A DNA stretch of 64,000 nucleotides, taken from NCBI GenBank assembly GCA_021773365.1, contig JAJFKF010000039.1, positions 1 through 64,000 of the forward strand, read 5' to 3'. The DNA is from Gammaproteobacteria bacterium (GTDB taxonomy: Bacteria; Pseudomonadota; Gammaproteobacteria; Steroidobacterales; Steroidobacteraceae). Made by a program: the position numbers and the translations under genes. Positions 22,014 through 51,139 of the stretch are shown here, piece by piece (the first letter of the stretch is position 1; the number at the start of each line of letters is the position of its first letter). The notes beneath the pieces were generated by a model, which saw nothing but the letters and a program-made list of their open reading frames with translations, had not been told where the DNA came from and made no database searches.

Positions 22014-22089
22014 GTCCCCATCGTCTAGAGGCCTAGGACACCACCCTTTCACGGTGAGAACCGGGGTTCGACTCCCCGTGGGGACGCCA
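22014..22089 (+). tRNA. tRNA-Glu (anticodon TTC); island integration site
   Basis: The acceptor stem GTCCCCA/TGGGGAC, the CCTTTCACG anticodon loop (anticodon TTC) and the T arm ending in GGGGACGCCA all match bacterial tRNA-Glu. A C-A mismatch sits at the base of the anticodon stem. The recombinase gene on the opposite strand begins to overlap it at the 3' end and terminates at 22049 within the tRNA. The tRNA 3' end is repeated in related form at 36627, 38856, 47296 and 50930, which marks it as the attachment site. Confidence 0.95.
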
Positions 22090-23623
22090 TCACATTTTCG
22101 CCCCTCGAGATCTGCTCTAAGAACTTGAATGGAAAGGAGATTTCTGGGGTTCGAAAGCCCTCGTTCCGGGCGTAGGAAACCCGCTTTGCGAAGGCCAATC
22201 TGAGCACCATTCTGCGGTCCTGCAGGCGCGGAGAATTCCATAGCGTACAAGGACTTGCCATGAACTCCAGTGGGGTTCGAACTTTCTCCCCATGGGCCTT
22301 CGGCGCACGGCCGCAATCGGCGATTTTCTCGCCCAGCACGGCCTTCTCCGTTTCCAGTTTCCGGATGCGGTTCTCAAAAGCTTTCGTGATCGACGGGGAG
22401 TCGGAGTCCGCGATCCGATCCACGAGCTGCTCGATCTTGCGCTCGATCTCGACCAGCCTTCTCTTGTGCGTCTGGGCGTCGTTTCGCAGTGAGCTGTGAC
22501 GGTGCGTCAACATCCCCTCGATCATGGCCCGAGCGGTGCGCAGGTGATCCGCCGCCGGCGTCAGCTTCTCCAGCAGCGTCTGGAACTCATCCTCCATGAC
22601 CTGACGCCGGATCGATTTGCGATAGTTCGCGCAGCCGCGTCTGGCGCACAGGTAGTAAGGATACCTGTCCTTCCACCGGCCCACCGACCAGCACGCGGTC
22701 ATGGGCGAACCGCAGTCCGCGCAAAGTACGAATCCGCGCAAGGGGAAATCGCTGGCGATGTCCTTGCGCGCGGGGACCTTGACGCCGCCCGTCAGGCGCT
22801 CCTGGATTCTGTGATAGGTCGCGACGGTGATGAGCGGCTCGTGATGTCCCTTGCGCAGGGTGACACCCCATGCGGGCGCTTCCACCAGCCCCGCGTATAC
22901 CGGGCGCTTGAGGATGTTCGTGACATTCTGGTTGCGAACCGCGTCGCTCGCGGCTTTCGGAAACTCCGGCCGTGCCTCGAGAAACCGCTTCACGTCCGCC
23001 TGGGTGTGGAAACGTCCGCTCGCAAATCCTTCGAGGGCTTCCTGCACGCTGGAGGCCAGCGGCTCATTCCTGACCAGTACCTTTCCCTTGCCGGCGGACT
23101 TCTCGTAGCGATAGCCCACGGGCACCTTGAACACATAGAAGCCCTGCTCGACGCGGGCCTTCATCTTCTGAATCGTCTGCCGGCGGCCCTGCATGCGCTC
23201 GAGTTCGCCCTGGGCGGCGATAATCGTCTCGATGAACTTGCCTTCCGGCGTGTCCTCGAACTTGAAGTTCAGGCACTCCACCGTCGCGTTGTACGTCGCC
23301 AGGCGCTTGCGCAGCACGAGGTGAAACTCGGTATCGCGGGCAAAGCGCTTCAGATCATCGAAGATGACCGCGTAGTTGTCGCGCTTGTGGTGGCTCAGGA
23401 ACCTCAGCATCGCCACCATGCCGGGACGGCTCATGAAATCGCCGCCACCGGAAACATCGTCGTTGAAAACCGTCTCGACTACGTAGCCCCGGGAGGCGGC
23501 ATACTCACGGCAGCGATGCTCCTGGCTGTGCAGGCCGTCGCCCTCGTTCCTTTGTTTGACGTGGGAGACGCGGCAGTAGATGACTGCCTTTTGATGGGAC
23601 TGGGATTGCTGTTCTACAGACAT
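22049..23623 (-). CDS. Large serine recombinase (site-specific integrase)
   Basis: The 524-residue protein has an N-terminal resolvase domain (AVIYCRVSHVKQRNEGDGLHSQ, nucleophilic Ser in YCRVS; about 12-155). A recombinase domain follows (about 165-270), then a zinc ribbon (CADCGSPM...CARRGC) and a coiled coil (about 375-430). It should integrate and excise the island at tRNA-Glu. The last residues MASPRGVEPRFSP are read from the antisense strand of tRNA-Glu, and the stop lies in the tRNA; the native C-terminus in the excised form must differ (see findings). It is 17 bp downstream of a small protein gene and shares an operon with the AlpA-like gene. Confidence 0.92.
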   Translation of the reverse strand: MSVEQQSQSHQKAVIYCRVSHVKQRNEGDGLHSQEHRCREYAASRGYVVETVFNDDVSGGGDFMSRPGMVAMLRFLSHHKRDNYAVIFDDLKRFARDTEFHLVLRKRLATYNATVECLNFKFEDTPEGKFIETIIAAQGELERMQGRRQTIQKMKARVEQGFYVFKVPVGYRYEKSAGKGKVLVRNEPLASSVQEALEGFASGRFHTQADVKRFLEARPEFPKAASDAVRNQNVTNILKRPVYAGLVEAPAWGVTLRKGHHEPLITVATYHRIQERLTGGVKVPARKDIASDFPLRGFVLCADCGSPMTACWSVGRWKDRYPYYLCARRGCANYRKSIRRQVMEDEFQTLLEKLTPAADHLRTARAMIEGMLTHRHSSLRNDAQTHKRRLVEIERKIEQLVDRIADSDSPSITKAFENRIRKLETEKAVLGEKIADCGRAPKAHGEKVRTPLEFMASPCTLWNSPRLQDRRMVLRLAFAKRVSYARNEGFRTPEISFPFKFLEQISRGENVMASPRGVEPRFSP

Positions 23624-27788: not shown

Positions 27789-28743
27789 AGACACCGCGGC
27801 GCACTGGCTCGCGCGGCGTGAGCTCGAGGACTGGACCGTGGACGACCAGGCGCAGCTCGATGTCTGGCTGGATGCAGCAATCTTGAACCGCGTAGCATTT
27901 CTGCGCCTGGAGACGGCCTGGGAGCAGACCCGGCGGCTGCCGGCGCTGGCGCCGGGCGCTGGACGGCGCAGCGTGCCGCCGCGGGATGGCTGGAACGTGT
28001 CGCCATTCTTTGAACGCAGGCAGGGAGAGGCCTTACCAGCGGCGCGTTTCCGTCAGCCGCTGACCTGGGCCGCAGCATTGCTGCCTGCCGCCTTGTTGGC
28101 GGGCTGGTATCTGTGGCCGGGCGACCGTACGTTCGAAACACCCATTGGTGCGACAGCCAGTATCCCGCTCCAGGATGGCTCAAATGTCACACTGAACACC
28201 GCGAGCAGAATCCGCATTGCGCTGGATGACAGGGAGCGGCGCATCGAGTTGCGGTCCGGTGAGGCGTTCTTTGACGTGGCAAAGGATCCGACAAGGCCGT
28301 TCATTGTTGAGGCGGGCGCCCGAAGAATTGTCGCGGTGGGAACGAAATTCTCGGTTCGCCGGGACGGCAGCGCGGTCTCCGTGATTGTGACCGAGGGAGC
28401 GGTTCGTTTCGATGCTGACGATGCCGGACTTCTGGAAGCCGGCGCGGTGGCTCAAACCCGCGGAGATGAGGTTGCGGTGGTGAGCAAAACCGTCCGCGAA
28501 GCCGAGGAGGCGCTGAGCTGGCGGACGGGTTATCTCACTTTCGATGAAACGGCGCTGGGTGAGGTGGTGGCCGAGTTCAACCGGTATACGCCGCGCCCGA
28601 TCCGGATCGGGAGCGCACGCCTCGAAGACTTGCGTATCACCGGCCGCTTTCGTGCCACCAACACGGACGCCTTTATCCGCGTCGTGGAGCAGGGATTCCG
28701 GGTCGAAGTGGAGGCGGGTGAGAAGGAAATCATTTTGCGGTAG
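27754..28743 (+). CDS. FecR-family anti-sigma regulator
   Basis: A 329-residue inner-membrane regulator. The cytoplasmic DUF4880 domain (AAHWLARRELEDWTVDDQAQLDVWLDAAILNRVAFLRLETAW) is followed by one membrane segment (about 97-112, WAAALLPAALLAGWYLWPG). The periplasmic FecR domain (IPLQDGSNVTLNTASRIRIALDDRERRIELRSGEAFFDVAKDPTRPFIVEAGARRIVAVGTKFSVR) and a STN-like C-terminal domain (VVAEFNRYTPRPIRIGSARLEDLRITGRF) complete it. It relays receptor occupancy to the sigma factor. ATG 27766 is an alternative start. Confidence 0.93.
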   Translation: MRIRMDSTRQTEDTAAHWLARRELEDWTVDDQAQLDVWLDAAILNRVAFLRLETAWEQTRRLPALAPGAGRRSVPPRDGWNVSPFFERRQGEALPAARFRQPLTWAAALLPAALLAGWYLWPGDRTFETPIGATASIPLQDGSNVTLNTASRIRIALDDRERRIELRSGEAFFDVAKDPTRPFIVEAGARRIVAVGTKFSVRRDGSAVSVIVTEGAVRFDADDAGLLEAGAVAQTRGDEVAVVSKTVREAEEALSWRTGYLTFDETALGEVVAEFNRYTPRPIRIGSARLEDLRITGRFRATNTDAFIRVVEQGFRVEVEAGEKEIILR

Positions 28744-28801
28744 TAGTGGTTTATCTGGAGTTGTTCGACTAAAGGCCCGACTATCATTCGGGGAGACGAA
28801 C

Positions 28802-31800
28802 ATGTTTAAGACCCTGGCGTTCAAGTCCGTTCTGGTTGCGCTGACAAGTGCAGCGTGTGTTGCCGCGTTCGCGGCGCCAGACTCACAAAGCAAGCTGGAT
28901 GTGCCTGCGGGAGAACTGGTGACGGCGCTGAAAGCGCTGGCCAGGCAGGCAGATGTGGAGCTGGTGTTTCAGGCCAAAGAGGTCAAGGGGATCAAGACCG
29001 AACGACTGGTCGGATCCTACTCGGTGACGCAGGCGCTGGATATTCTGCTGAAAGGGACGGGGCTGAGGCTCTTTACCGACAGTTCGGGTGCAATGGTGGT
29101 GTCGCGCCCGGAGTCGAAGTCATCGGCGGTGCGTCCCGTGGCCGGTCTTCAACTCGCCAGGAGCAACCAGGTCGGGCAGGAAATTTCGCCCTCTCCTGGG
29201 GCAGGGAGAGCGCCGGGTGAGGACAAGCAGGACATCGCAAGTACCGATGATCCGGACACGGATCAAGCTGAAGCAACCAAAGGCGTGCCCGAAATCCTGG
29301 TGAAGGGCTCCCGCAGCCTGAACATGGATATCGAGCGCAGCGAAGACGGGCCGCTCCCGTATGTTGTGTTCGACCGCGAGGAGATCCGGCGCTCGCAGGC
29401 CATGCACCTGGAAGACTTCCTGCATTCACGGCTGCCGATGAACACCTCCGCGGGCATGGCAACTGAAACCGGCGGTGCCGTCCTGAATGGTGCCAGCCGT
29501 ATCAATCTGCGTGGCCTGGGAACGAACCAGACTCTGGTGCTGGTAGATGGGCGGCGGGTGCCCGAAGTAACGTTGCAAGGTCTTCCCGGGCAAGGCGACC
29601 TCAACGGCATCCCGCTGGCTTCTGTAGAGCGTATAGAAGTGCTGCCGTCCAGCGCCGGCGGCATCTATGGCGGCGGCGCCACCGGCGGAGTGATCAATAT
29701 CATCCTGCGCCGCGACTACAGCGGCGTGGACGCGACGGCAAGCTACGCCAACACCTTCGACACCGATGTAGCCGAGTTGCGGCTGGACACCACCGCGGGA
29801 TTCGCGCTCGAAGGCGGCCGCACCCAGGTCACACTCTCGCTCAGCCGGTCGGGAGGAAATGAGTTGAAGGTGGCAGACCGGGAATTCGCGGCCCGCAGCC
29901 GCGCGCTCCAGCTGAAGAACAATCCGAATATTGCAGAGTGGACCACGTCGACGACGCCGCCAATCGGTGCAACGGTCAATATCCACAGTTCCGACGGCAG
30001 CCCGCTGGTGCTGGACGCGGGCTATGGTGGCGCGACACTGACCAACAGTCTCGGCCAGCCAACCAATATCACCCATATCCCCCTGGGTTATGCGGGGCCA
30101 GCTTCGGACAGCGGACAGGCGTTGCGCACGAATGCCGGGAGATACAACCTCGGGCTGCCGAATGACATGAAGGGACTGCAGGCCAGGATGCGACAACAGC
30201 CCACATCAGAGTCGTATTCCTTGAACGTCCGCCGTGGGTTCACCGAGCAGCTGGATGTATTCCTGGATCTGTCGCACCGCGAGCGGCATGGCGAGGCGGT
30301 CTCCGGAACGGTTTTTTCCGCCAGAAATCTCCCCGCCGGCGCGCCGAACAACCCCTTTCAGCAGAATATCAACGTGTCTTTTCCGGTGCCCGGACTGGAA
30401 GTCGGTACTCAGAACGAGAACAGCACCTTGAGCGGGACGGTCGGGCTCATTGCGCGTCTGCCTTACCAGTGGATGGGTGAAATCGACTATGCGGTGGGCC
30501 GCTCGCGGCTGGAAGCGAGTTATGCAGGTTCTATCGTGGAGCCCGCAGGTGCAAGCTTTAGCTCGGGGGTGATCAGCACCGGGCTGCCTGCGCCGGACGG
30601 GCGTCCCGCACTGAATGCGCTGCAGGAAGGCAATACCTATCCGATCGACTTTTCGCCCTATCTGCTGCCACAGCCGGCCATTGTCCAGGGGCCTTTTGAC
30701 ACCGTGCTGACTGATGTGACGCTGCGCCTGTCGGGACCGACGTTCAAGCTGCCCGGTGGTCCTGTGAACCTGTCGGCACTGGTCGAGAGCAGGAAGCAGG
30801 TGATGGAGAACGGCTTCTTCGTGGATCGTCCTACCCGTACGACTACGACGTATCGGCTGTTTGCCGAGCGCCCGCAGGAAACGCGATCCTATTACCTTGA
30901 AGCGCGCGCGCCGTTGATCTCAGTCAGCAATGCAATGCCCGGCGTACAGGAACTGGAGCTACAGGTGTCGTTGCGGCGGGATGAATATACAACGCACGGT
31001 ACGGCGCCGAATTTCCGGTCAGTGCCGTCGCTCCAGGGCCCGTTTCCAGAGTTCGCGCGCCATACGGGTGAGGTAGCCTCGAATGACCATACCGTCGGCG
31101 TGCGGTATATGCCGTTTCAAGACCTGGCGCTGCGTGCCAGCGTTGGGACCGGATTTCTGCCGCCATCGGTCAGCCAGGTGGTGTCCAACGTGTTCCCGGC
31201 GTTCTCGTTCGGAAGTTTTGGCACTGACCCGAAGCGCGGCGGCACCCAGATGGATGCCAACGGGAGCTTCGATTACATCTACGGTGGCAATCCGGATCTG
31301 CAGCCGGAGCTCTCGGACAACCTGTCGTTGGGAATGATTTTCACGCCGCGCTGGGCGCCCGGCCTCAGGCTTTCAGTCGACTACACCCGGATCAAGAAGG
31401 TGGATGAGATCCAGAGTGCGAGCGAGCAGTATTTTCTCGACAACGAGGATTTCCTGCCTGGCCGGATTGTCCGCGGGGAGAGGCTGGTGGGAGATCCTCC
31501 GGAGTGGGCGGGCCCTATCACGTCCTTCAACACAACGTTGGTCAATATTGCGAACACCCGGGTGGAGGCGTACGACCTCCAGGTCGACTATGACCTGCAG
31601 ACGGCCCGTTTCGGCGACTTCCGCTGGTATGCACTGGTGACCCGGCAGACCGATTACCAGAACCAGCGGCTGCCCGGCGAGCCGATGGTGGATTATGTGG
31701 GGTATAGCGGCGGGCGGCCACTGGAGTGGCGGGGCAACCTGGGAATGAACTGGGAGAAAGGACCGCTCGCGCTGGGATGGAATGCGCAGTACTACGACTC

Positions 31801-32137
31801 GTACTACGCCTATTCCGTCGGGACGGGAACAACAGCCGCCGCGATCGCGGCGTCCACCGCCAGCAACAGAGCCACTGCCTTGCTCAACCAGGGGTCCGAT
31901 GCGATTCCAAGCCAGCTCTATCATGACTTGATCATGAGTTACCGGTTTGACCGAGCAATCGGGTTCGCCGGCGGGTTGTTTTCGAACAGCGAGGTTTCCT
32001 TGGGTATCCAGAACCTGTTCGATACTTTGCCGCCCATCCTCGCCACGACCGATCCGGGGGGCAGCTTCAGTCCCTACGGCGATGGCCGCCTGCGGCGCTA
32101 TACGCTCTCGTGGAATAAATCCTTCGGCATGAGGTGA
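28802..32137 (+). CDS. TonB-dependent receptor with STN signalling domain
   Basis: The 1111-residue outer-membrane transporter has a signal peptide (about 1-25) and a STN domain (about 28-95, LDVPAGELVTALKALARQADVELVFQAKEVKGIKTERLVGSYSVTQALDILLKGTGL). A TonB-box-like EILVKGSRSLN and the plug (YVVFDREEI..INLRGLGTNQTLVLVDGRRVPE) follow. The beta-barrel ends NKSFGMR. The STN domain should contact the FecR protein encoded upstream. The ATG at 28802 gives the signal peptide; the longer frame from 28544 overlaps fecR and is wrong. Its pre-plug motif is nearly identical to that of the receptor at 57978. Confidence 0.94.
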   Translation: MFKTLAFKSVLVALTSAACVAAFAAPDSQSKLDVPAGELVTALKALARQADVELVFQAKEVKGIKTERLVGSYSVTQALDILLKGTGLRLFTDSSGAMVVSRPESKSSAVRPVAGLQLARSNQVGQEISPSPGAGRAPGEDKQDIASTDDPDTDQAEATKGVPEILVKGSRSLNMDIERSEDGPLPYVVFDREEIRRSQAMHLEDFLHSRLPMNTSAGMATETGGAVLNGASRINLRGLGTNQTLVLVDGRRVPEVTLQGLPGQGDLNGIPLASVERIEVLPSSAGGIYGGGATGGVINIILRRDYSGVDATASYANTFDTDVAELRLDTTAGFALEGGRTQVTLSLSRSGGNELKVADREFAARSRALQLKNNPNIAEWTTSTTPPIGATVNIHSSDGSPLVLDAGYGGATLTNSLGQPTNITHIPLGYAGPASDSGQALRTNAGRYNLGLPNDMKGLQARMRQQPTSESYSLNVRRGFTEQLDVFLDLSHRERHGEAVSGTVFSARNLPAGAPNNPFQQNINVSFPVPGLEVGTQNENSTLSGTVGLIARLPYQWMGEIDYAVGRSRLEASYAGSIVEPAGASFSSGVISTGLPAPDGRPALNALQEGNTYPIDFSPYLLPQPAIVQGPFDTVLTDVTLRLSGPTFKLPGGPVNLSALVESRKQVMENGFFVDRPTRTTTTYRLFAERPQETRSYYLEARAPLISVSNAMPGVQELELQVSLRRDEYTTHGTAPNFRSVPSLQGPFPEFARHTGEVASNDHTVGVRYMPFQDLALRASVGTGFLPPSVSQVVSNVFPAFSFGSFGTDPKRGGTQMDANGSFDYIYGGNPDLQPELSDNLSLGMIFTPRWAPGLRLSVDYTRIKKVDEIQSASEQYFLDNEDFLPGRIVRGERLVGDPPEWAGPITSFNTTLVNIANTRVEAYDLQVDYDLQTARFGDFRWYALVTRQTDYQNQRLPGEPMVDYVGYSGGRPLEWRGNLGMNWEKGPLALGWNAQYYDSYYAYSVGTGTTAAAIAASTASNRATALLNQGSDAIPSQLYHDLIMSYRFDRAIGFAGGLFSNSEVSLGIQNLFDTLPPILATTDPGGSFSPYGDGRLRRYTLSWNKSFGMR

Positions 32138-35267: not shown

Positions 35268-35375
35268 CTCCCGGAAACTCCCCGCTGACACGGCGTCTGG
35301 CGGTATATATCATGGCTGCTGGCTTCGACTTACGGGTATGCAGTCCTCAAGGCAGACATTCCACTCCTCAAGGGC
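35268..35375. repeat. Island repeat copy A
   Basis: About 108 bp matching copies B-E: CCGGAAACTCC near the left end, TATATCATGG, and TCAAGGCAGACATTCCACTCCTCAAGGGC at the right. On the minus strand it encodes the shared C-terminal peptide (AALEEWNVCLEDC..) ending at TGA (35310-35312). The match stops at about 35375 without the GGGACG core; a TlpA-like gene begins inside it. Confidence 0.75.
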
Positions 35376-36486: not shown

Positions 36487-36635
36487 CTCCCAGAAACCCT
36501 CTCTGACACGCCGCTTGGGAGGCGTCTATCATGGCCGCCGGTTTCGATACATGGGCGTGCAGTTCTCAAGGCAGGCATTCCATTCCTCAAGGGCCTCGAA
36601 AAGCTGGTTTGACTCTATTAGACCAAGGGACGTAA
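36486..36635. repeat. Island repeat copy B with att-like core
   Basis: About 150 bp. It includes CCAGAAACCCTC, CTATCATGG, TCAAGGCAGGCATTCCATTCC and AAGCTGGTTTGAC, and ends in GGGACGTAA (36627-36635), a variant of the tRNA-Glu 3' end. The minus strand encodes NQLFEALEEWNACLENCTPM and then YRNRRP before TGA at 36529-36531. It separates the TlpA-like gene from the AbiE-like pair. Confidence 0.8.
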
Positions 36636-36701
36636 TTTTCAATAAAATCAATAGGTTACTAAATTGATTCTCGCTGAATCTTGATCGCGTGGATTGCCAG
36701 C

Positions 36702-36755
36702 GTTCACGAAAATGTATATGTTCACGGATCCGTGAACAACCAAAAAATCGTGAAC
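36702..36755. promoter_or_regulatory. Symmetric four-half-site operator of the AbiE-like operon
   Basis: TGTTCACGGATCCGTGAACA (36719-36738) is a perfect 20-bp palindrome. It is flanked by GTTCACGA (36702-36709) and its exact complement TCGTGAAC (36748-36755), placed symmetrically about the same centre. Four identical half-sites with two-fold symmetry are expected for autorepression by a dimeric or tetrameric antitoxin; AbiEi proteins repress their own promoters through inverted repeats. Confidence 0.7.
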
Positions 36756-37865
36756 ATTCCTGAGCCCGCCGGTCCATTTCTCGAACGGGCGCTCGTAAAC
36801 CAGTTACGCGCGCTTCTGGAGAGCATTGGATGGCTCAAGGGTTGGTCGGTGGACGAACAGCCTGCGAAGCGTCGTCCCGATTTCGACTTTCGACTCAGAA
36901 TACCTCGTTCCAAAGGCCCGGCAGCTGAGCTGTGGGTGCAATGCTCAGCCAATCCTCGACCATCCCGTTTCGCTCCGGCGCGTGGACGTAATCAACCCAA
37001 ACCGGGGGAAGCCATATTGGCGGCTCCGTACATTTCTCCTCGCATGGCGCAGGTGTGCGAGGAGCAGGGATGGAGCTGGTACGACCTCGCAGGCAATTGC
37101 CGGTTGAGTCTCCCGGGAGTACTGGAGGTTCAACGCTCCGGCCACAGATTAAAACGGCGCCAGAGGCCTCCCAGGGCCAACCTGGGTACGACTGAGGCGG
37201 CGCGGGTCATTCGCGCCTTGCTCGTGCCTGAGAATGCAAATTTGCGATGGACACAGCGCACGCTCAGCGAAGCCTGCAAGCCCAAAGCCAGCATTGGACT
37301 CGTCAACAAACTGGCCCGATATCTACGCGACGAAGGCTATCTTGAGTATCTTCCATTGCCGGATGAGGGATTCCGGCTGCGCGATCCGGTCGGGCTGCTT
37401 ACGGCCTGGCGTGAATCCTATCGGTTCGACCGCCACAAGCGTCTCGGGTATTTCACTCTGATGCAGGGGCAGAAGCTACAAACCGCTTTGAGCGAACTCG
37501 GCGAAAAAAGACAGGGAAATGTTGCCTATGCCGCTTTTTCCGCCGCCGATTTCCAGGCCCCCCACGTGCGGCAACCGAAAACATGGCTCTACGTTTCAGG
37601 CAGCGATCTGCCGCTGATGGAGCGGCTGTTGGAGGCCAAGCCCGTGGACTCCGGTGAAAATCTGGTGATACTGGTTCCATGGGACGAGGGAGTTTTCTTC
37701 CTTGCCGCTCCCGGCTCGGACAAGCGGGGACTGATGCAATCGACGCACCCGGTACAGACGTATGTCGATCTATGTCACGTCGGTGGGCGGGGTACCGAGG
37801 CGGCGGCCGCACTATTGGAGAAAAGTCTTCTGCCTGCATGGAACCGCGGAGGAGCAACCGGTTGA
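36732..37865 (+). CDS. AbiEi-like antitoxin/transcriptional regulator
   Basis: About 377 residues with an N-terminal nuclease-like or sensor region (RALLESIGW..RRPDFDFRLRI..GWSWYDLAGNCRLSLPGVLEVQRSG). A winged-helix region follows (TEAARVIRALLVPENANLRWTQRTLSEACKPKASIGLVNKLARYLRDEGYLEYL), then a C-terminal domain ending before the partner gene. This layout, followed by an overlapping nucleotidyltransferase, is that of type IV AbiE systems, in which AbiEi antagonises AbiEii and represses the operon. The start is uncertain: GTG 36732 and GTG 36750 both lie in the operator; TTG 36681 is upstream. Confidence 0.75.
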   Translation: MNNQKIVNIPEPAGPFLERALVNQLRALLESIGWLKGWSVDEQPAKRRPDFDFRLRIPRSKGPAAELWVQCSANPRPSRFAPARGRNQPKPGEAILAAPYISPRMAQVCEEQGWSWYDLAGNCRLSLPGVLEVQRSGHRLKRRQRPPRANLGTTEAARVIRALLVPENANLRWTQRTLSEACKPKASIGLVNKLARYLRDEGYLEYLPLPDEGFRLRDPVGLLTAWRESYRFDRHKRLGYFTLMQGQKLQTALSELGEKRQGNVAYAAFSAADFQAPHVRQPKTWLYVSGSDLPLMERLLEAKPVDSGENLVILVPWDEGVFFLAAPGSDKRGLMQSTHPVQTYVDLCHVGGRGTEAAAALLEKSLLPAWNRGGATG

Positions 37866-38710
37866 ATTCAGAGCCTAGTGAGATCGTTGACTATAACCGC
37901 CGTCAGGTCGAGGCCGCCCGGCGGGTGCTGGTGGATCTCGGTCAGGTGCTCGCCTCGTTTGCGGACTGCATGGTGCTGATTGGCGGCTGGGTGCCGGATC
38001 TGCTGTTGGTTGACGCGACGGAGCCGCATGTGGGGAGTATCGACGTCGATATTGCACTCGATGCGGCCAGGCTTGGGAACGGCCGGTACGCGGAACTGCT
38101 CAAGCTGCTCTTGGACACACGGCGTTACTACCGTGGCGAAAAGGATTTTCAGCTCATCGCGGATGTCGATCTCGCGGATGGCGAGCTGCCGGTGCAGGTC
38201 GACGTGGAGTTTCTGGCGCCGAGTCAGGTGAAACTGAAGAAGAACAGACCGAAACTGCTCGACGGTTTCCGCGTTCTGCAGACTGCGGCCTGCGGTATCG
38301 CGTTTCATGACCCCTTGGAGTTGACGCTCTCCGGGAAAACTGTGCGCGGCGCCCGGAATACGGTACGGCTCCGGGTGGCTTCACTCGCGGATTTCCTGAC
38401 CATGAAAGCGCACGCGATCGCGGGCAGGGACAAACCGAAGGATTCCTATGATCTGTGCTATTGCCTGGAGCATGTTCCCGGAGGGATCGAGGTACTGGCC
38501 GAAGCGTGGCGCAATCACAGGCACCTGAAAGAGGTCGGCCAGGCCATCGCGATTCTTCAGGAGAAATTCTCTGCTACCGATGCGTTTGGTCCGTCTCAGG
38601 TCGTGGAGTTTCACAACTCACCGGACGTGGATACTCGCGCCATGCAGGCGCGCAGGGCCTATGAACTCGTGCAGAAATTCCTTGGCCTGCTGCGGTCTCA
38701 GGATCGATGA
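37862..38710 (+). CDS. AbiEii-like nucleotidyltransferase toxin
   Basis: A 282-residue protein with the minimal nucleotidyltransferase signature: MVLIGGWVPDLLL followed by GSIDVDIALD (the DxD metal site), then VQVDVEFL as the third carboxylate strand. AbiEii toxins transfer nucleotides, in some cases to tRNA 3' ends. It starts with TTG overlapping the upstream stop (TTGA), and GGAGGAG lies 8 bp before it, which decides the start. Repeat copy C follows its stop codon. Confidence 0.8.
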   Translation: MNSEPSEIVDYNRRQVEAARRVLVDLGQVLASFADCMVLIGGWVPDLLLVDATEPHVGSIDVDIALDAARLGNGRYAELLKLLLDTRRYYRGEKDFQLIADVDLADGELPVQVDVEFLAPSQVKLKKNRPKLLDGFRVLQTAACGIAFHDPLELTLSGKTVRGARNTVRLRVASLADFLTMKAHAIAGRDKPKDSYDLCYCLEHVPGGIEVLAEAWRNHRHLKEVGQAIAILQEKFSATDAFGPSQVVEFHNSPDVDTRAMQARRAYELVQKFLGLLRSQDR

Positions 38711-38712
38711 GG

Positions 38713-38864
38713 TAATCCCTGGAATCTCCCTGGAGACATGCCGGCGTCGTTCACCTATCATGGCTGCCGGTTCTGATACACGGACGCGCAGCGCTCAAGG
38801 CAGACGTTCCATTCCTCAAGGGCCTCTAAAAGCTGGTTCGAACTTTTTTGACTTTGGGACGCCA
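38713..38864. repeat. Island repeat copy C with att-like core
   Basis: About 152 bp, with CCTGGAATCTCCCTGGAGAC, CTATCATGG, TCAAGGCAGACGTTCCATTCC, AGCTGGTTCGAACTTTTTTG and GGGACGCCA (38856-38864), identical to the tRNA-Glu 3' end. The minus strand encodes LLEALEEWNVCLERC and ends at TGA (38758-38760). Similarity to copy D continues to about 39040, through a stretch with KYGRT on the minus strand that may be another recombinase 3' end. From 38711 to 39199 I see no intact gene. Confidence 0.85.
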
Positions 38865-39199
38865 CTTCCTGTTGGGCGCTCGTGCGCCCGTATTTTTTGC
38901 CTACTGAATTCTGTAAGTAGTTGAAAAATAACAAAATGTTAAAAACGACGCCCGGTTCGAACAATCCTTCCCCGTCGAGTCGATTTCCTCCGATGAATAA
39001 GCTTCTGCGAAGACATCCGCTCGAACTCTCGCGAGTTCAATGAGTTACGGCGCGATCACGGGGTTCGAATCTCCTTGGGCCGCGTAGCGTATATCTGGAT
39101 GCTGTTCAGCTGCAGTACTTAAGGTATTTTCCGGATCGAATGGCGGCGTGGTGAAGTCGCCTTGTGTGTTCTTGCTATCCGGACCGTGAGCTTTTCTCG

Positions 39200-40377: not shown

Positions 40378-41580
40378 TCATTTCGTTCCATTTCTGGTTC
40401 TGTATTCCGCCAACTGATCCTCAAGGCCGGAAAGGTAATGTTCGGGCAATTTGTTGTTGCCTCCGGCGATGGCCAGGGCCTTTTCCTGCGCTACGATGGC
40501 TTGCCGTAGATTGCCCAGTCGGCTGTGCACGCGGGCTATCGCTTCCCAAGTAGATAGATTCCCGGTGTTTGTAGCCGCTGCTTCCTGCAAGTAGTCTAGA
40601 CCGAGTTCGTATGTATCTTTAGACAGGTTCTCTTCGGCCGCAATCACGGATCCCACTGCGCCCCAGTACTGCGGATTGTCGGTTTGGCCGATATTTTTTC
40701 GCAGTGCGATGTCCTGTGCCGTTGCGTGCGCGTACTTCAGACCTTGAATCGCGTCAAGCTGAAGTAGTGCGCCGAGCTTGGCTGAGAACATCTCCCAGGC
40801 CCATTGTGGTGACTGCGCGCCCAGTCTATCCGCTTCGGTAATAACTGAGCAGTAGTCCTTACGTTGCTGCGCGTCTTTTAATGCCCGTATGATCGTCTGC
40901 ACTTGCAGGCTCTCGAAATTTTCTTCGTTGATTTCAGTCTGCATGGTCCATGCTGCGGCCAAATCGCTGCTGCCGAGGAGTGCCTGCTCGATTGCCGTGT
41001 CAAAAGCCGCGGTACTTACAGATGGGTAGCCCATCCACACCAGTTTGCCAGAACCGTCGACGACAAAAGACGTGGGAATTGCATAGGAGCCACCAGCTAC
41101 CATCCAGGCCTCAAACACGGTTTTCCTGGCAGGATCGTCCATCGCCACCGTGTAGGCCATCCTCTCGTCTTTCTTCTTGACGAATGCCGAGATGGCGTCA
41201 ACGCTGGTGTTCGCACCGCTGTCCGCTTCGCGCACATTGACGCCGATGACTGTGATCTGTCCAGCGTGCTTCCGCTGTAAGTCGCTTAGATGAGGCATGA
41301 TTGCCTCGCACGGTGCACACCAAGTTGCCCAGAATTCCACCACGTACACATGACCAGGCAAATAGCCGGTAACCGGCGCACCACGAATCCACGCCATGGC
41401 GTCGATCGCAGGGGCAGCGTCACCGATCTTCAGCCTGGGCTCTGGCGCTGCAGCTGCCAGCGGTATTGCCGGTGCAATCGTCGGGGTTGCGCAGCCAGCA
41501 AGCACGAGCAGCATCGTCGTTATGGTGCGCCATGGAATCGTCAGCAGTACCGCCGACGTTGCGCCTTGTCCGACTGACAT
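40378..41580 (-). CDS. Thioredoxin-domain lipoprotein, receptor-associated
   Basis: A 400-residue protein with a lipoprotein signal (LLVLAGCATP, lipobox LAGC). A TlpA-like thioredoxin domain follows (about 50-200, WCAPC in VEFWATWCAPCEAIMPHL, cis-Pro in YAIPTSFVVD), then a TPR-like helical C-terminus (about 225-395). Its start overlaps the stop of the TonB receptor by one base (TGATG), so the two are translationally coupled. Like the gene at 32245, it pairs a thioredoxin with a STN-TonB receptor. Confidence 0.85.
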   Translation of the reverse strand: MSVGQGATSAVLLTIPWRTITTMLLVLAGCATPTIAPAIPLAAAAPEPRLKIGDAAPAIDAMAWIRGAPVTGYLPGHVYVVEFWATWCAPCEAIMPHLSDLQRKHAGQITVIGVNVREADSGANTSVDAISAFVKKKDERMAYTVAMDDPARKTVFEAWMVAGGSYAIPTSFVVDGSGKLVWMGYPSVSTAAFDTAIEQALLGSSDLAAAWTMQTEINEENFESLQVQTIIRALKDAQQRKDYCSVITEADRLGAQSPQWAWEMFSAKLGALLQLDAIQGLKYAHATAQDIALRKNIGQTDNPQYWGAVGSVIAAEENLSKDTYELGLDYLQEAAATNTGNLSTWEAIARVHSRLGNLRQAIVAQEKALAIAGGNNKLPEHYLSGLEDQLAEYRTRNGTK

Positions 41581-44500
41581 CAGAATGCCTTCTTGATGCT
41601 TATATAGTAGCTGGCCAGTTGAGCCGCGTTGGCTAAGGCATTTCCAGAGGCCCTCACATCTATCGGCGGCAGGGTATTGAATACGTTCTTGACGCCGGCC
41701 TGGAGTTCCAGCCCGCTCAGCAGCCCCGGGGCCGCCGCAAGGTCTCCGGCAGCGTCAGCGAAGCGATAGCTGGCGTAAAGATCGTGATAGTCCTGTGACC
41801 GGACCATGGCCGAGCCCTGATCGGCATCGAAGTTGTGGGCGAGATTCAGCCAGTAGCCGTCGTAGTAACGGGTGGACCATGCCAGTCTCCAGGCACGGTA
41901 GTCCCACGATAGCGTTGCGAAGGACTTCCATTTCAGGTGAGTGCGCTGCCCGAGATTCTCCACCAGCGGAGCGGACGGTACGATCTGTGTTTCAAACTGC
42001 ACCTGACGGGTGGCTCCGGCCGTGATGCCGAAGGCTCCGAAGCGGCTGGTTTCCCAGTCGTATTGCAGCGCCAGGTCATACATCTGCAGTCTGGTCTGCG
42101 CGATATTGAGGAGAGTCAGATCCAGTCCGATGATCGGTCCCACACCGTACGGATCACCCGGCGCAACCGGGCCTCGCGGCAGGCGCGACGGCGCAAAGTC
42201 GGCAAAAGTGACGATGGTGGCGCCTCCCAGCGAAAAGGAAGTGATGTTGTCCATCTTCTGTATTTCGGTCCAGTCGATCGAAGCGCGAAAACCGGGTACG
42301 AAATCCGGAGTCCACACGATGCCCGCGGACCGGCTCTTCGATTCCTCGGGACGCAAATCGGCGTTGCCGCCGGTCAGGACGAAGAAATCTCCCAACAGCT
42401 CGTTGCCCCTAAGCGGGTCTCTCAATCCCAGAAGTCCCGAAAGGAATCCCTCTACGTCGAATGGCGGCGCGGTTACCAGCTGCTCCACCGCCGGCGGCAG
42501 AAAGCCACTGCCGTAGCTAAGACGCAGCATAAGGTCGCGTACCGGCCGGTAGCGCAATCCAATCGTTGGATTGGTAGAGTCGGTATTATTGGTGGCGCGC
42601 TGTACGTCCTGATCGGGTGAGGTCGCGCTGATGTTGTTGGCGCCGCTGGTCTCATATTCGTCCCGGCGTCCGGATAGCTGCAGATCAAGTTCATGCACAC
42701 CCCGCCAGTTCAGATGAGGCGCGACCAGGGGCAGGTTCACTTCCAGATAGACGCTGTTCACGCGCTGTGACCGGCTGGGGAAGAACGCATCGTAGGAACC
42801 CCCGATCGTCCTCTGGTTTCCCAGGCTTTCACGCCTGTGCTCGATCGAGGTCGACACGCTTGCCGCTCCGGCGGGGAGTCTCCATACCGGTCCAGCCAAT
42901 CGAATGACGGCGTTTTGCAGCCTGGTATCTGCGTCGGTGGTGACGATCGTCTGGCCGATGTACGGGGAGAAATCCACCGGAAAGGCGTTGGTGTCGCGCA
43001 ACACATCCAGTGCGCCGCTGGTGACCGCCGCCGTGCTCTGTGCCGTCGATTCGCCATGACTGGCGTTGGAGAAGCGGGTTTGGTCCCAGGTGTAATCTGC
43101 TTCCGCCCGCCACCCGGCGGCGAGTTGCATGATTACACCGCCGACAACCCGTTGCTTTTCGTTGCTCGACTGTATGACACCATCTCCACCGAATATTGGT
43201 GTCGTCACGCGAATTGCCTGTCCGAACGGATTGTTCGGTGCGGCGACGGGAATGGTGAAGGATCGCGTCGCCCGGTTGGTGTAGAAGGCGCCATCGTTGC
43301 TGCTCGCGCTCAGATCCAGAAACGCCTGAACTCTTCCGGACAGCGGACGACGGATGGCCGCGTTGAAAGACTTCACCGTGGGATTGTTCACCAGGCTGGC
43401 CCTGCGCCCACCGTTCGTTTGCGCAGTGTTGGCCAGTTCCAAATTGTACCGACCGGCGTTTGCAACCAGGGCCGCGCCGCCGTCGGCGGTGCCGGCGTAC
43501 CCGGCGGGAACAAAGGTAATCGGGGAGTTCAGGGCGGTTCCATTCTTCAGGATCAACGGCGATCCGTTGCTGCTGCGGATATTGGTGGTTGCGCCCAGCA
43601 GCGGCGTGGTTGCGTTGAGCACAGCAGCCGGATTGTTGGCAAACCGGTGCGCCAGGGTACGTGCCTGGAATCCGCGGTCCTGCTCGAGCAGCACGTTGCC
43701 GTCGCTGTAGCTGGCGCTGAAAATGACGTCAGTCTTGCCCGACTCCAGCGAGAAGCCGCCGCTGACGTCCACGCGGCGCCGCGAAACATCCGTGTCGAAT
43801 GTATTCTCGTAGGTGACCTTCGTTTCCACCCCCGCGTAGTCACGGCGCAGAATGATGTTGATGACCCCACCGGTAGCGCTGCCGCCGTAGATGCCCGAGG
43901 CCGTTGTCGCGAGCACTTCGATTCGCTCTACCGCCGACAAAGGAATGCCGTTGATATCCGGTTGCTGCGCGCTGCCGCCATAGGCAAAGGAGGCGCTGCG
44001 GTGGCCGTCGATCAGGATCAGCGTCTGGTTGGATCCCAGGCCCCGCAAGTCAATGCTGCTGGCGCTGCCGAGCCCGACCGGACTGTCGGACTGGCTGGGC
44101 GAAAGTACTGTCGTATTGGCCATCAGCCGCTGGCGCAGGAAGTCCTCCAGATTGACCGCCGCGGACTGTTCGATTTGCCGCCGGTCGAATATGACGTACG
44201 GCTGCGCGTCATCGGCGCTGCGCCTGATATCCATATTGAGGACTTTCGAGCCCCGCACCAGAATCTCGGGAACAGCTTCGGCCCGCTCCGGCGCCTCCGG
44301 CGCAGCTCGATCCTTGAGTGCGTCCTCGGCGACAAAGCCGGTCCGGGCGAGAGCAAGCTGTACCGCCTCGCCTTGCGCTTCCCGCCCGTCGGCCGGAAGA
44401 GACGTGGTGGATTTCTGAAGACGAATAGCGATGGTGCGCGGATTGATGAACTCATATTGCAGCCCGGACCCCTTGAGCAACCGATCCAGCGCCACCTCGG

Positions 44501-44726
44501 GGGTATAGGTGCCGGTGAGCTTGCGCGCTGGAATCCGGGCCGCTTCCTCGTCAGTGGGAAAAATCAGCTGCAAGCCCGACTGCTGGGTGAACTGGATCAG
44601 CGCCTTGACCATGGTGGGAGCGTCGATATCCAGCGTGACAGACTGGACCGGAGGTTCCTCCGCACCGGCAACGGCACACAACAGCGACAAGAAAATACCC
44701 GCCATCGCATTGTTAAAGGCCTTCAT
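41580..44726 (-). CDS. TonB-dependent receptor with STN signalling domain
   Basis: A 1048-residue receptor with a signal peptide (about 1-22) and a STN domain (about 28-105, LDIDAPTMVKALIQFTQQSGLQLIFPTDEEAARIPARKLTGTYTPEVALDRLLKGSGLQYEF). A TonB-box-like EILVRGSKVLN, the plug (IDLRGLGSNQTLILIDGHRSASFAYGG) and the barrel ending YYISIKKAF complete it. It is divergent from the sigma factor at 44878 (151 bp apart) and coupled to the thioredoxin lipoprotein downstream. Confidence 0.94.
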   Translation of the reverse strand: MKAFNNAMAGIFLSLLCAVAGAEEPPVQSVTLDIDAPTMVKALIQFTQQSGLQLIFPTDEEAARIPARKLTGTYTPEVALDRLLKGSGLQYEFINPRTIAIRLQKSTTSLPADGREAQGEAVQLALARTGFVAEDALKDRAAPEAPERAEAVPEILVRGSKVLNMDIRRSADDAQPYVIFDRRQIEQSAAVNLEDFLRQRLMANTTVLSPSQSDSPVGLGSASSIDLRGLGSNQTLILIDGHRSASFAYGGSAQQPDINGIPLSAVERIEVLATTASGIYGGSATGGVINIILRRDYAGVETKVTYENTFDTDVSRRRVDVSGGFSLESGKTDVIFSASYSDGNVLLEQDRGFQARTLAHRFANNPAAVLNATTPLLGATTNIRSSNGSPLILKNGTALNSPITFVPAGYAGTADGGAALVANAGRYNLELANTAQTNGGRRASLVNNPTVKSFNAAIRRPLSGRVQAFLDLSASSNDGAFYTNRATRSFTIPVAAPNNPFGQAIRVTTPIFGGDGVIQSSNEKQRVVGGVIMQLAAGWRAEADYTWDQTRFSNASHGESTAQSTAAVTSGALDVLRDTNAFPVDFSPYIGQTIVTTDADTRLQNAVIRLAGPVWRLPAGAASVSTSIEHRRESLGNQRTIGGSYDAFFPSRSQRVNSVYLEVNLPLVAPHLNWRGVHELDLQLSGRRDEYETSGANNISATSPDQDVQRATNNTDSTNPTIGLRYRPVRDLMLRLSYGSGFLPPAVEQLVTAPPFDVEGFLSGLLGLRDPLRGNELLGDFFVLTGGNADLRPEESKSRSAGIVWTPDFVPGFRASIDWTEIQKMDNITSFSLGGATIVTFADFAPSRLPRGPVAPGDPYGVGPIIGLDLTLLNIAQTRLQMYDLALQYDWETSRFGAFGITAGATRQVQFETQIVPSAPLVENLGQRTHLKWKSFATLSWDYRAWRLAWSTRYYDGYWLNLAHNFDADQGSAMVRSQDYHDLYASYRFADAAGDLAAAPGLLSGLELQAGVKNVFNTLPPIDVRASGNALANAAQLASYYISIKKAF

Positions 44727-46490: not shown

Positions 46491-47016
46491 GGGGCGCGGC
46501 GCCGGAGCTGCCCGATGGTTTCGAGGGACTCTCGGACGGTGAGGTCGACAGCTGGCGCGATCGGAGCACGGGCGGTGGCAGGACCTCGACATGGACCGCG
46601 TTAGGTATAACCCTGGATACCAATGTTATTTTGGAGCTTTCAAAGCCCGAGCCGAGCCCGCACCTCCTGAAGAAATTCCAGTAGCACCGATTCGTCTGTG
46701 CGACCTGCGCGCCGGTACTGTACGAACTGAGGTGCGGCATCGCTCAGCTCGCCGCCAGCAAGCGCCGCAAGGCACCGACAGAATTCATCGATGGGCTTCT
46801 GGGCGATGGCATCGAGGCGTTGCCATATGATCGTAAGGCGGCGGAAATTTACGCGGAGGAACGCGCTGCACTCACTGCCAAGGGTAGGCCACTCACCTAC
46901 GTGGATGGCCAGATCGCCGCTGTTGCACTCGCTTATGAGGCGGCCGTCGCCACCCGCAACGTCGATGACTTCAAGTCCTTCACTCGGCCTGCGCGTGGAG
47001 AACTGGTTCAAGTAGT
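46491..47016 (+). pseudogene. Decayed copy of Phd-VapC module
   Basis: This stretch repeats the 3' part of the antitoxin and all of vapC at 47760-48291, but it is broken. Lesions include a one-base insertion after the vapC start (near 46605), a CAG to TAG nonsense change in the FQQHR region (46679-46681), and a one-base insertion near the end. Just after it, GGATACGGGACGGAGCTTCAGCG matches the last bases of the primase-helicase gene (50695 on), so the helicase of this copy was deleted almost completely. Confidence 0.88.
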
Positions 47017-47154
47017 AGTCGCGAACCGTGACGGATACGGGACGGAGCTTCAGCGACGCAAACGCTGACTATAAGCCGCCAGCAATGCGCGGGTCGCTCT
47101 GCCGCATGCGAGCGCGTGCTCCAGCTGCGACAAGTTCGCTAAAGAAATACCCAA

Positions 47155-47304
47155 AAGTTCCCCGAAACTCCCTGGAGACTCTGCGGTGGTCACATGCGTA
47201 TCATGGCGCATGGTTGGAATCTGGGTCGTTGCGCTCGAGACAGGTGCTCCATTCTTCAAGGGCGTCAAAAAGCTGGTTCGAACTTTTTTGACTTAGGGAC
47301 GCCA
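47155..47304. repeat. Island repeat copy D with att-like core
   Basis: About 150 bp, nearly identical to copy E: CCGAAACTCCCTGGAGACTC, GTATCATGGCGCATGGTTGG, AGCTGGTTCGAACTTTTTTG, then GGGACGCCA (47296-47304), identical to the tRNA-Glu 3' end. The minus strand encodes LFDALEEWSTCLERN to TGA at 47201-47203. Similarity to copy C continues to about 47490. The stretch 47017-47525 has no intact gene. Confidence 0.85.
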
Positions 47305-47525
47305 CTTCCCGGGCGCGTGTGCGCCCGTACTTTTTGTGCACGTGGTTTCTGCAAGTATTTGGAAAAAAATAACAATAAATCAGAACGGGTAAGCGGTTCG
47401 AAGACTCGGTTTCTATTTGGTCGATTCTCCTGCTTCAGACATGATTCCTCAGAAACCCTTCCGCGAACTCTTTCAAGTTCAATGTGCAGCATGCGGGGTA
47501 ACCCTTCGAGGGGCTCGGGAGGGGC

Positions 47526-47571
47526 TTGGAATTCCAGTCGGCAGACGCTATTATGGCCACAATTGTAGCCA
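47526..47571 (+). promoter_or_regulatory. Promoter and operator of the phd-vapC-primase operon
   Basis: TTGGAA (47526-47531) and TATTAT (47549-47554) are separated by 17 bp, a good sigma-70 promoter. The pseudopalindrome TGGCCACAATTGTAGCCA (47554-47571; one mismatched pair) begins at the last base of the -10 and covers the start point, 17 bp before the antitoxin ATG. Phd antitoxins repress by binding such sites. Confidence 0.65.
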
Positions 47572-47587
47572 CATTAAAGGTGCTGCC

Positions 47588-47881
47588 ATGCGCGAAAGCA
47601 CGATCCGGGAGGCGAAAAACGCCTTCACCCGGCTGATTCATTCCGCCGAGAAAGGTGAGGCCGTGCGCATCACGCGCCACGGAAAACCCGTGGCGGTGCT
47701 GGTGTCCAACCGCGAGTACCAGCGCCTGAACACCGGTGGGGCTCGTAAGGATCCCTGGGAGTTCCTGAAGGACTGGCGCGCGAAGCTGCCTGATGATTTC
47801 GAGGGACTCTCGGACCGTGAGGTCGACAGCTGGCGCGACAGGAGCACGGGCGGTGGCAGGACCTCGACATGGAGCGCATGA
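47588..47881 (+). CDS. Phd/YefM-family antitoxin
   Basis: A 97-residue antitoxin: MRESTIREAKNAFTRLIHSAEKGEAVRITRHGKPVAVLVSNREYQRL is the Phd DNA-binding fold, and the C-terminal acidic part (DDFEGLSDREVDSWRDR) would wrap VapC. The ATG at 47588 is preceded by AAAGGTG; the longer frame from 47417 runs through the repeat. The stop lies 13 bp inside vapC. Confidence 0.92.
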   Translation: MRESTIREAKNAFTRLIHSAEKGEAVRITRHGKPVAVLVSNREYQRLNTGGARKDPWEFLKDWRAKLPDDFEGLSDREVDSWRDRSTGGGRTSTWSA

Positions 47882-48291
47882 GGTTCATCCTGGATACCAA
47901 TGTCATTTCGGAGCTTTCCAAGCCCGAGCCGAATCCGCGTGTCCTGAAGAAGTTCCAGCAGCACCGTTTCGTCTGCGCGACCTGCGCGCCGGTGCTGCAT
48001 GAACTGAGATTCGGTATCGCGCAGCTCGCCGCCGGAAAACGCCGCAAGGCACTGACGGAATTCATCGATGGTCTTCTAGGCGATGGCATTGAGGCGTTGC
48101 CATATGATCGCAAGGCGGCGGAAATCCACGCGCAGGAACGCGCCGCACTTACTGCCAAGGGTACGCCGCCCACCTATGTGGATGGCCAGATCGCCGCGAT
48201 TGCACTCGCTTGTGATGCGGCCGTCGCAACCCGCAATGTCGATGACTTCAAGCCCTTCACCGGCCTGCGCGTGGAGAACTGGTTCAAGTAA
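47869..48291 (+). CDS. vapC: VapC-family PIN-domain toxin
   Basis: A 140-residue PIN ribonuclease. The acidic residues are in place: Asp in FILDTNVISEL, Glu in LHELRFGI, Asp in YVDGQIAAIA and the ATRNVDDF closing motif. It is encoded with a 13-bp overlap after the antitoxin and 12 bp before the primase-helicase, so all three are probably one operon. A broken copy lies at 46590-47016. Confidence 0.93.
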   Translation: MERMRFILDTNVISELSKPEPNPRVLKKFQQHRFVCATCAPVLHELRFGIAQLAAGKRRKALTEFIDGLLGDGIEALPYDRKAAEIHAQERAALTAKGTPPTYVDGQIAAIALACDAAVATRNVDDFKPFTGLRVENWFK

Positions 48292-48303
48292 CCATCGCGA
48301 ACC

Positions 48304-50712: not shown

Positions 50713-50794
50713 CGGCGCGGACGCGGGTCGCTCTGCAGCATGCGAGTGCGTGCCCCAGTTGCGACAAGTTCGCTGAAGAAATACCTAAAACTTC

Positions 50795-50938
50795 CCTGAA
50801 ACTCCCTGGAGACTCTGCAGTGGTCACATGCGTATCATGGCGCATGGTTGGAATCAGAGTCGTTGCGCTCGAGACAGGTGTTCCATTCTTCAAGGGTTTC
50901 AAGAAGCTTGTTCGAACTTTCTCTGTTTAGGGACGTCA
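50795..50938. repeat. Island repeat copy E and right attachment core
   Basis: About 144 bp, a near copy of D: CCTGAAACTCCCTGGAGACTC, GTATCATGGCGCATGGTTGG, AGCTTGTTCGAACTTTC, ending GGGACGTCA (50930-50938). The next bases TCACATTTT also match those after tRNA-Glu. The minus strand encodes LLETLEEWNTCLERN to TGA at 50835-50837. It forms the right end of the island. Confidence 0.85.
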
Positions 50939-51130
50939 TCACATTTTCACCCCTTGAATCTGCCATAAGAGCTTGAAAGAAAAGGAGATTTCAGGGGTTC
51001 GCAAGCCCTCGCTCCGGGCGCAGGAAATCCGCCCAGCGAAGGCTACCTTGAGCGCGATTCTGCGGTCCTGCAGCCGATCGGAATTCCATTGGCTACAAGG
51101 ACCTGCCATGAACTCCAGCGGGGTTCGAAC
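50939..51130 (-). pseudogene. 3' remnant of a second serine recombinase
   Basis: About 190 bp align with 22090-22282, the 3' end of the intact recombinase. The encoded peptide is RTPLEFMAGPCSQWNSDRLQDRRIALKVAFAGRISCARSEGLRTPEISFSFKLLWQIQ. It is diverged at many positions, with a one-base loss just before the att core. The rest of the gene is missing; OmpW begins at 51140. It is the scar of a second, related element at the same site. Confidence 0.85.
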
Positions 51131-51139
51131 CTTGGCGTC

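Follow-up and report, generated by a model that had tools for sequence, protein, structure and literature searches.

We propose that the large serine recombinase (LSR) described here carries its attP site inside its own coding sequence. Very probably, the frame of the enzyme continues on the circular element into a conserved tail, and integration exchanges that tail for an end encoded by the antisense strand of a tRNA gene. The gene was identified in a stretch of 64,000 nucleotides (the window) from a member of the Steroidobacteraceae, and the features at this edge of the island are as follows:

22049 to 23623, minus strand: LSR (integrase) in its integrated form, 524 amino acids, from the list of open reading frames and Pfam
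22014 to 22089, plus strand: tRNA-Glu(TTC) from tRNA prediction, the target gene and attB-derived part of attL
22090 to 22285, minus strand: C-terminal codons of the recombinase, forming the integrase-side att arm, within repeat D5
22081 to 22089, plus strand: core common to the tRNA end and the att arms, GGGACGCCA (TGGCGTCCC on the recombinase strand)

Ahead of the tRNA, the recombinase frame contains no stop codon. Its minus-strand codons from 22090 to 22049 read MASPRGVEPRFSP followed by a stop. The A of the first of these codons is the base just outside tRNA-Glu, whereas the remaining bases and the TGA are tRNA antisense, the stop codon being made from the TCA of the tRNA-Glu anticodon loop. 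The coordinates and this codon reading bear out the preliminary description, which had ascribed the last 13 or so residues and the stop codon of the recombinase to the antisense strand of the tRNA.

Pfam searches of the 524-aa protein identified Resolvase (PF00239, 7e-23), Zn_ribbon_recom (PF13408, 8.3e-9) and Recombinase (PF07508, 2.9e-5) domains, and this domain set identifies it as a large serine recombinase. Only serine recombinase domains were detected, and no tyrosine recombinase domain. The catalytic serine motif RVS is present, S20 is invariant in 26 of 26 aligned sequences, and the protein matches the A118 integrase profile at 6.9e-10. In an AF2 model, long helices at residues 358-438 form a coiled coil. 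A fold search with this model matched LSR structures with Z scores of 13.3-12.0, but with high rmsd; matches other than serine recombinases were mostly coiled-coil proteins and were discounted as helix matches. The recognised LSR domains and structural matches finish by residue 506, and residues 517-524 are unstructured in the model (pLDDT < 50).

The same arrangement recurs in relatives of the enzyme. A scan of species genomes provided a first set of 54 loci encoding recombinase relatives, most at 41-60% identity, and each was examined for two features, antisense of a tRNA or tmRNA where the recombinase ends and a frame open into that gene. Such antisense is present at 48 of the 54 loci, and at 45 of the 48 with a called tRNA or tmRNA the frame enters it without a stop. 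A native stop codon before the tRNA in close homologues had been proposed beforehand as the observation that would refute the idea; it was found only at the three exceptions among the 48, all of them degenerate (L019 is truncated, L020 has an internal stop and L030 an altered end), and at none of 21 loci in an independent draw; in addition, the recombinases of L038 and L051 in the first set stop where no tRNA was called. The first set includes four other loci without a called tRNA: at L050 the contig edge ends the frame, L042 and L047 have broken frames (a separate scan did call tRNA-Leu at L042), and the frame of L028 continues like the tRNA-Thr frame of G231.

The independent draw, made as a check on selection, covered 289 genomes from the class of G200 and yielded 24 recombinase loci in 19 genomes besides G200. 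The recombinase overlaps a tRNA at 21 of the 24, with an open frame at all 21; the other three, L199, L208 and L210, have tRNA-like residues at their ends, which for L199 and L208 coincide with contig edges. Over both sets the targets are tRNAs for Arg, Met, Ala, Thr, Tyr, Val, Leu, Lys, Ser and Phe as well as tmRNA, and the window adds Glu, for a total of eleven tRNA isotypes and tmRNA. The C-termini of the integrated forms vary in length from MVL and a stop (G216, G220) up to an 848-aa frame (L046). Loci of the first set are mostly from Rhodobacteraceae or other Alphaproteobacteria. L003 (which has the coordinates of G078) belongs to the window's own family, the Steroidobacteraceae of the Gammaproteobacteria, and L025 is also gammaproteobacterial (genome G214, which holds the G214a tail as well). 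Of 200 genomes from the window's family, three have a match (E up to 1e-40): the window genome, G027 and G078.

Some individual loci differ in what surrounds or follows the overlap. At L046 (G217:C25) the recombinase frame passes through tRNA-Tyr to reach 848 aa, and its end is RNA methyltransferase-like by eye. At L062 / L159 (IMGVR_UViG_3300025839_000345) the frame breaks off inside a tRNA-Tyr-like stretch and is followed by sequence that appears phage-like by eye, possibly a phage inserted into the same tRNA. Outside the Proteobacteria, L049 (Candidatus Doudnabacteria) is a distant relative, at 33% identity, with the same 3' overlap at a tmRNA gene.

At the far end of the islands we identified a conserved tail, encoded on the LSR strand with the consensus SSNxLFExLxEW...; one example, MVGLTVEESNRLFEILQDWESQLSHFDLDDPRCDNDNNAP and a stop, lies 29.9 kb from a tRNA-Tyr. 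We analysed stretches of up to 100 kb upstream of the recombinase, oriented by it, comprising 38 besides the window (36 genomic and two viral contigs) and ten further ones, mostly of the phase-shifted kind, for a total of 49 including the window. The first tails were picked by a search for the tRNA-end core and then by a search for core plus motif, both read in integrase phase. From 13 tails (10 elements and three window copies) we built an HMM, which in a six-frame search found nine further elements at 16.0-51.7 bits, on the recombinase strand in every case, against a best opposite-strand match of 13.0 bits and a best reversed-sequence match of 9.6. Retraining on 22 tails added three elements (35.4, 19.0 and 10.3 bits). 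Tails were thus found in 23 of the 49 stretches, window included, many of the stretches being short because of contig ends; among those of at least 35 kb the count is 19 of 24. The HMMs detected no tail in the long stretches G200, G221, G218, G231 and G221b (at least 35 kb each), and a looser pattern search in these five gave only matches like those of the control strand.

Ten stretches from the independent draw served as a held-out test. Eight contain a tail, at 25.6-51.1 bits with a control maximum of 12.1; none was found in the 39 kb of G356 or in G445, which is only 3.4 kb long. An open frame arising by chance across tRNA antisense was also considered, and it is ruled out by the far-end tails together with the recurrence at 48/54 and 21/24 loci.

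The tail is conserved as a protein between Alpha- and Gammaproteobacteria and lies 7-39 kb from the recombinase end. Linkers of 0, 3, 4 or 18 residues separate SN from LFExLxEW, and the frame is kept each time. Tails end in the form RGP(R/K/S)(P/L) in G209, G219b, G227, G211, G235 and G204a (G205 is similar) and in the form xxAP in the window (WIN), G215, G216, G219a and G222. Such an ending may serve as a recognition signal for a partner or a protease.

The tail and the recombinase also agree in codon phase. Two subfamilies cross the core in different phases: 19 of 22 elements are in phase 1 at both ends and three (G204b, G211 and G227) are in phase 2, with no discordant ends. Half of these elements (11/22) were first picked by integrase-phase reading and provide no test of phase. 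The 11 found independently of phase, in six frames, comprise eight of phase 1 and three of phase 2, all concordant, and the eight held-out tails are all phase 1 (G361 being read through its mutated core). If the phases were independent, 16 phase-1 and three phase-2 elements with none discordant would have a probability of 1 in 969, and the 11 alone 1 in 165. The phase-2 group has only three members, of which G227 scores 10.3 bits, near noise (9.5), and has no called target tRNA.

As judged from sequence comparison alone, the tail is under selection as a protein, amino-acid changes being rarer than silent ones. Six pooled tail pairs (of twelve computed) have pS 0.40 and pN 0.18 in the fused frame, and pS/pN of 0.21/0.21 and 0.21/0.23 in the other frames. 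The window tail pair WINc/WINb has no silent excess (pS 0.12, pN 0.14), as might be expected of relics. Past the stop codon, identity falls sharply in only one of three pairs: in G219a/G222, 0.90 at the end of the tail gives way to 0.45 and 0.23, whereas it stays at 0.68-0.92 in G213a/G213b and the window pair. Given a conserved, in-phase far-end tail with a silent excess, the free enzyme should therefore carry a selected tail that integration removes. The claim of the preliminary description that integration alters the recombinase's own C-terminus has gained strong support across the family, in which the tail is conserved, in frame and phase-shifting with the recombinase.

The joined gene itself has not been seen. 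A joined C-terminus query of 385 genomes (E up to 0.001) matched separate integrase and tail halves, never both in one match. Free-form searches gave no joined gene in plasmids (one weak partial match, E up to 1e-30), no match in phages at E up to 1e-30, and two matches in viral contigs, both ending in tRNA-like residues and neither a joined gene. Because no intact joined gene was found in these genomes, plasmids, phages and viral contigs, the free form remains an inference. A query consisting of the gene before the tRNA and tRNA-Glu matched 36 of 40 relatives and defined no empty site among the 40; outside the window genome, the gene or the tRNA was covered separately.

The att arms resemble their tRNA targets beyond the core. 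A TCGAA-like pentamer lies at +23 from the core start in 21 of 22 att arms, and its T-loop equivalent lies at +18 in 22 of 22 targets. The spacing of the T-loop is set by tRNA geometry and is not evidence in itself. Six of the 22 arms were picked with a pattern that included the +23 spacing; it is found in 15 of the other 16 and in seven of eight held-out arms, the eighth being G361, whose core is mutated. The available part of a study of the Listeria LI integrase reports a zinc-ribbon (ZD) motif shifted by 5 bp between attP and attB, and a half-site of 25 bp (PMC3783163). On sequence alone, without binding data, the 5-bp offset between att arm and tRNA matches this known LSR difference between attP and attB. 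We infer, likewise without binding data, that the T-loop motif is read by the zinc ribbon; recognition of this kind would account for the wide range of tRNAs used by a single family. The SN codons of the tail coincide with TCGAA at +23, so DNA recognition probably accounts for some of the conservation of SN; G208b and G214a have TCAAA as the motif, a silent change, and retain SN. If crossover occurs within the core, LFExLxEW should lie mostly beyond the 25-bp half-site. Since TGG opens the core, most tails have ATG, GTG or TTG as their first codon.

The window contains several copies of the tail, as well as a second recombinase end:

50940 to 51133, minus strand: relic recombinase 3' end with a broken frame, 83% identical to D5, beyond the rightmost tail copy
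50835 to 50939, minus strand: free-form tail copy MTSLNRESSNKLLETLEEWNTCLERNDSDSNHAP and a stop, in phase with the decayed recombinase 3' end, an attP-like joint
47201 to 47305, minus strand: free-form tail copy VASLSQKSSNQLFDALEEWSTCLERNDPDSNHAP and a stop, core 9/9 against the tRNA end, terminator-like sequence next (by eye)
38758 to 38865, minus strand: free-form tail copy VASQSQKSSNQLLEALEEWNVCLERCASVYQNRQP and a stop, core 9/9, similar terminator-like sequence next (by eye)
36529 to 36615, minus strand: older tail copy ending in ESNQLFEALEEWNACLENCTPMYRNRRP and a stop, core altered
35310 to 35375, minus strand: tail-copy fragment ALEEWNVCLEDCIPVSRSQQP and a stop, from sequence reading

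The C-terminal recombinase codons together with the core, 22081-22285, have a counterpart with 83% identity at 50930-51133. The sequence on the opposite side of the core is also repeated: 47088-47304 and 50722-50938 share 90% identity, and weaker copies lie near 38.8, 36.6 and 35.4 kb. All of these opposite-side copies specify, on the recombinase strand, a tail of this type; at 35375 it is only a fragment. The core GGGACGCCA is identical at 47305 and 38865 and has one mismatch at 50939, and the terminator-like sequence after 38865 and 47305 is in both cases a hairpin and T run (by eye). It had been predicted that the repeat copies read on from GENVM into a tail, and they do: the minus strand from 50939 reads GENVM-TSLNRESSNKLLETLEEWNTCLERNDSDSNHAP and a stop in recombinase phase, and the ALEEWNxCLE form of the tail is found at 38865, 36615 and 35375. 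The limits of 22.1-50.9 kb assigned earlier to a single element, by contrast, are those of an array. The five tail copies and the relic recombinase end rule out repeats D5 and D2 as the two ends of one element, and point instead to putative tandem accretion. At 50939 the decayed recombinase end runs directly, and in phase, into a tail (GENVMTSLNRESSN...), the arrangement expected after tandem insertion at one tRNA; this joint also speaks for fusion of tail and recombinase on the circle. With five copies, the partner of the intact recombinase is ambiguous; those at 38865 and 47305 match the tRNA core 9/9.

The tail copies mark off a series of modules, and the recombinase is in the first of them only. 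Between 35310 and 50939, recombinase-less modules of about 1.2, 2.2, 8.4 and 3.6 kb are bounded by tail copies, and look like non-autonomous cassettes stacked at one tRNA. The module at 36681-38710 encodes two proteins, one of 394 aa without a match and one of 343 aa that weakly matches AbiEii in PADLOC (21.8 bits); they are possibly an AbiE-type pair. Tail copy 47305 is flanked by near-duplicates at 46503-47032 and 47781-48308 (88-92% identical), and the open reading frame at 47417-47881, which runs into the second of these, matches the NCBIfam phd_fam antitoxin; the duplicated segments look like toxin-antitoxin genes. The last module, 48304-50712, encodes an 802-aa protein with a strong PADLOC match to PrimPol (270 bits) and weaker helicase matches. 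Two large island genes in opposite orientations, 28544-32137 and 41580-44726, are TonB-receptor-like by eye, and both are 70-76% similar to segments at 58.5-61.2 kb outside the island (repeats D3, D6, I1 and I2).

With regard to known enzymes, the integrase of Myxococcus phage Mx8 is a tyrosine integrase, the LI/A118 integrase targets comK and not a tRNA gene, and the staphylococcal cassette recombinase CcrB targets rlmH. CcrB is the best NCBIfam match of the window recombinase, at 83.5 bits, but the curated cut-off of 900 bits is not reached. On the sequence evidence, and without the joined gene itself, the integrase frame would cross the att core as in Mx8, in SSV-type integrases and in the concept raised for DsiB. 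These are precedents, Mx8 and SSV among tyrosine enzymes and DsiB as a serine enzyme for which the idea was raised, and DsiB is the closest. In Mx8, attP lies inside the integrase gene, and integration gives int a new 3' end and, reportedly, a changed specificity; the wording "molecular switch" appears in the section of the review available to us (PMC6070905). Mx8 is a phage, whereas the window family consists of serine enzymes and is a whole family of islands. In SSV-type archaeal tyrosine integrases the recombination site is inside the integrase gene, which integration disrupts, and the accessible part of a review describes self-disrupting recombinases as found only in archaea (PMC8371274). 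There the split separates the catalytic part, whereas the window integrase loses only its C-terminal tail and retains all of its Pfam domains in the 524-aa integrated frame. The Listeria LI/A118 serine integrase (PDB 4kis) is similar in its recombinase, zinc-ribbon and coiled-coil regions and in the 5-bp ZD motif shift; an att site inside the coding sequence is not described in the available part of that study (PMC3783163).

DsiB, from the ssrA islands of Dehalococcoides, is a CcrB-like serine recombinase whose 3' end always overlaps attL, with no stop before the island edge. According to the portions of the paper at hand, its authors suggested that full function may be limited to the circle, or to a position beside an adjacent island with the needed 3' fragment, judged a functional region in the ssrA overlap unlikely, and left the stop codon unclear (PMC3146451). 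The window recombinase is alike in that its gene overlaps attL at the 3' end and is stopless before the island edge. DsiB has a single tmRNA target, whereas the window family has many tRNA targets and a conserved tail, and a conserved far-end tail, a test of phase and a treatment of att geometry are all absent from the same portions (PMC3146451). The window island is in tRNA-Glu rather than ssrA (tmRNA), which is the target of the homologue L049. Inspection by eye of the open reading frames at 20.5-25.5 kb revealed no second, DsiA-like small serine recombinase. A literature search of open-licence papers turned up neither a description of a conserved far-end tail nor one of serine integrases that, as a family, use many tRNAs.

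We suggest that attP lies about 510 codons into the LSR coding sequence. On the circular element, the frame would run over the crossover core into the opposite att arm and through a conserved tail of some 30-50 residues, predicted to read SSNxLFExLxEW and often to end in RGPRP or xxAP. We infer that this tailed, circle-made enzyme is the one that most likely performs integration. Crossover in the last bases of the tRNA gene would leave the tRNA whole, sever the tail codons and strand them at the far end of the island, and tRNA antisense, whatever its coding, would complete the integrase. The chromosomal enzyme would then be tailless and end in a tRNA-coded peptide, unstructured in the model. 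We infer, in the absence of activity data, that this form is altered, most likely in having lower activity or in needing a directionality factor, which would hold the island in. Its Pfam domains are intact and it may therefore still act, perhaps only with a directionality factor. Integrase-RDF fusions illustrate that an attached part can tip an integrase towards the reverse reaction (PMC5737554, from the available part of the source). That the tail swap is a switch between integrated and excised forms is plausible; it is an inference rather than a demonstration, with no activity data for either form. More tentatively still, and at somewhat less than even odds, we speculate that the helix LFExLxEW is a state tag present only on the circle-made enzyme, where it either promotes attP x attB synapsis or prevents the reverse reaction. 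Integration would in that case edit the enzyme and lock or re-tune its directionality; the att arm would also mimic the T-loop (TCGAA shifted by 5 bp), making nearly any tRNA gene usable.

The tail might be only a DNA signal of the att arm, or a small independent reading frame at the island end, never fused to the integrase. The coincidence of the TCGAA motif with the SN codons, the ATG, GTG or TTG at the start of most tails, the failure to observe the joined form in 385 genomes and the lack of a drop in DNA identity past the tail stop in two of three pairs could all be taken this way. We nevertheless regard it as very improbable, since LFExLxEW should lie mostly outside the 25-bp half-site and shifts by 0-18 codons from SN in frame, the tail phase tracks the integrase phase in both subfamilies, and pS exceeds pN in the fused frame only. 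In addition, the held-out G361 has kept its tail despite a lost start codon (QAHLGGESSN).

It is quite possible, if short of probable, that the overlap is passive: attP would lie at the 3' end for compactness, the tail would aid folding or lifetime of the free enzyme, and its loss would have no regulatory effect, the catalytic and DNA-binding domains being complete. LSR domains and structural matches do end by residue 506, and with integrated C-termini as arbitrary as MVL and an 848-aa frame, the enzyme may tolerate any ending. A tail kept as protein, in frame, from Alpha- to Gammaproteobacteria must however matter to the free form, and it is absent from every integrated gene examined. Suicide integration, in which the tailless integrase is dead and excision needs a tailed copy in trans, has been discussed for archaeal SSV-type integrases, and this precedent (PMC8371274, as far as the accessible part goes) speaks for it, as do the tandem insertions and relic ends of the window, which fit islands accreting rather than leaving. 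We consider it possible but less likely than not here: unlike in SSV, the catalytic, recombinase and zinc-ribbon domains remain in one frame after integration, the model of the integrated form has a long coiled coil, and most integrated genes have open frames.

If integration does replace a functional tail, as we propose, then integrases taken from integrated islands are tailless versions, and cloning them as found would miss the protein that is likely to be integration-competent and could also misplace attP. Genome engineering could profit from a self-editing integrase whose recognition motif is shared by tRNAs. For the question left by the DsiB overlap, regarding both its stop codon and its function, the in-frame tail offers a testable answer, namely that the free enzyme should have a selected tail which integration deletes.
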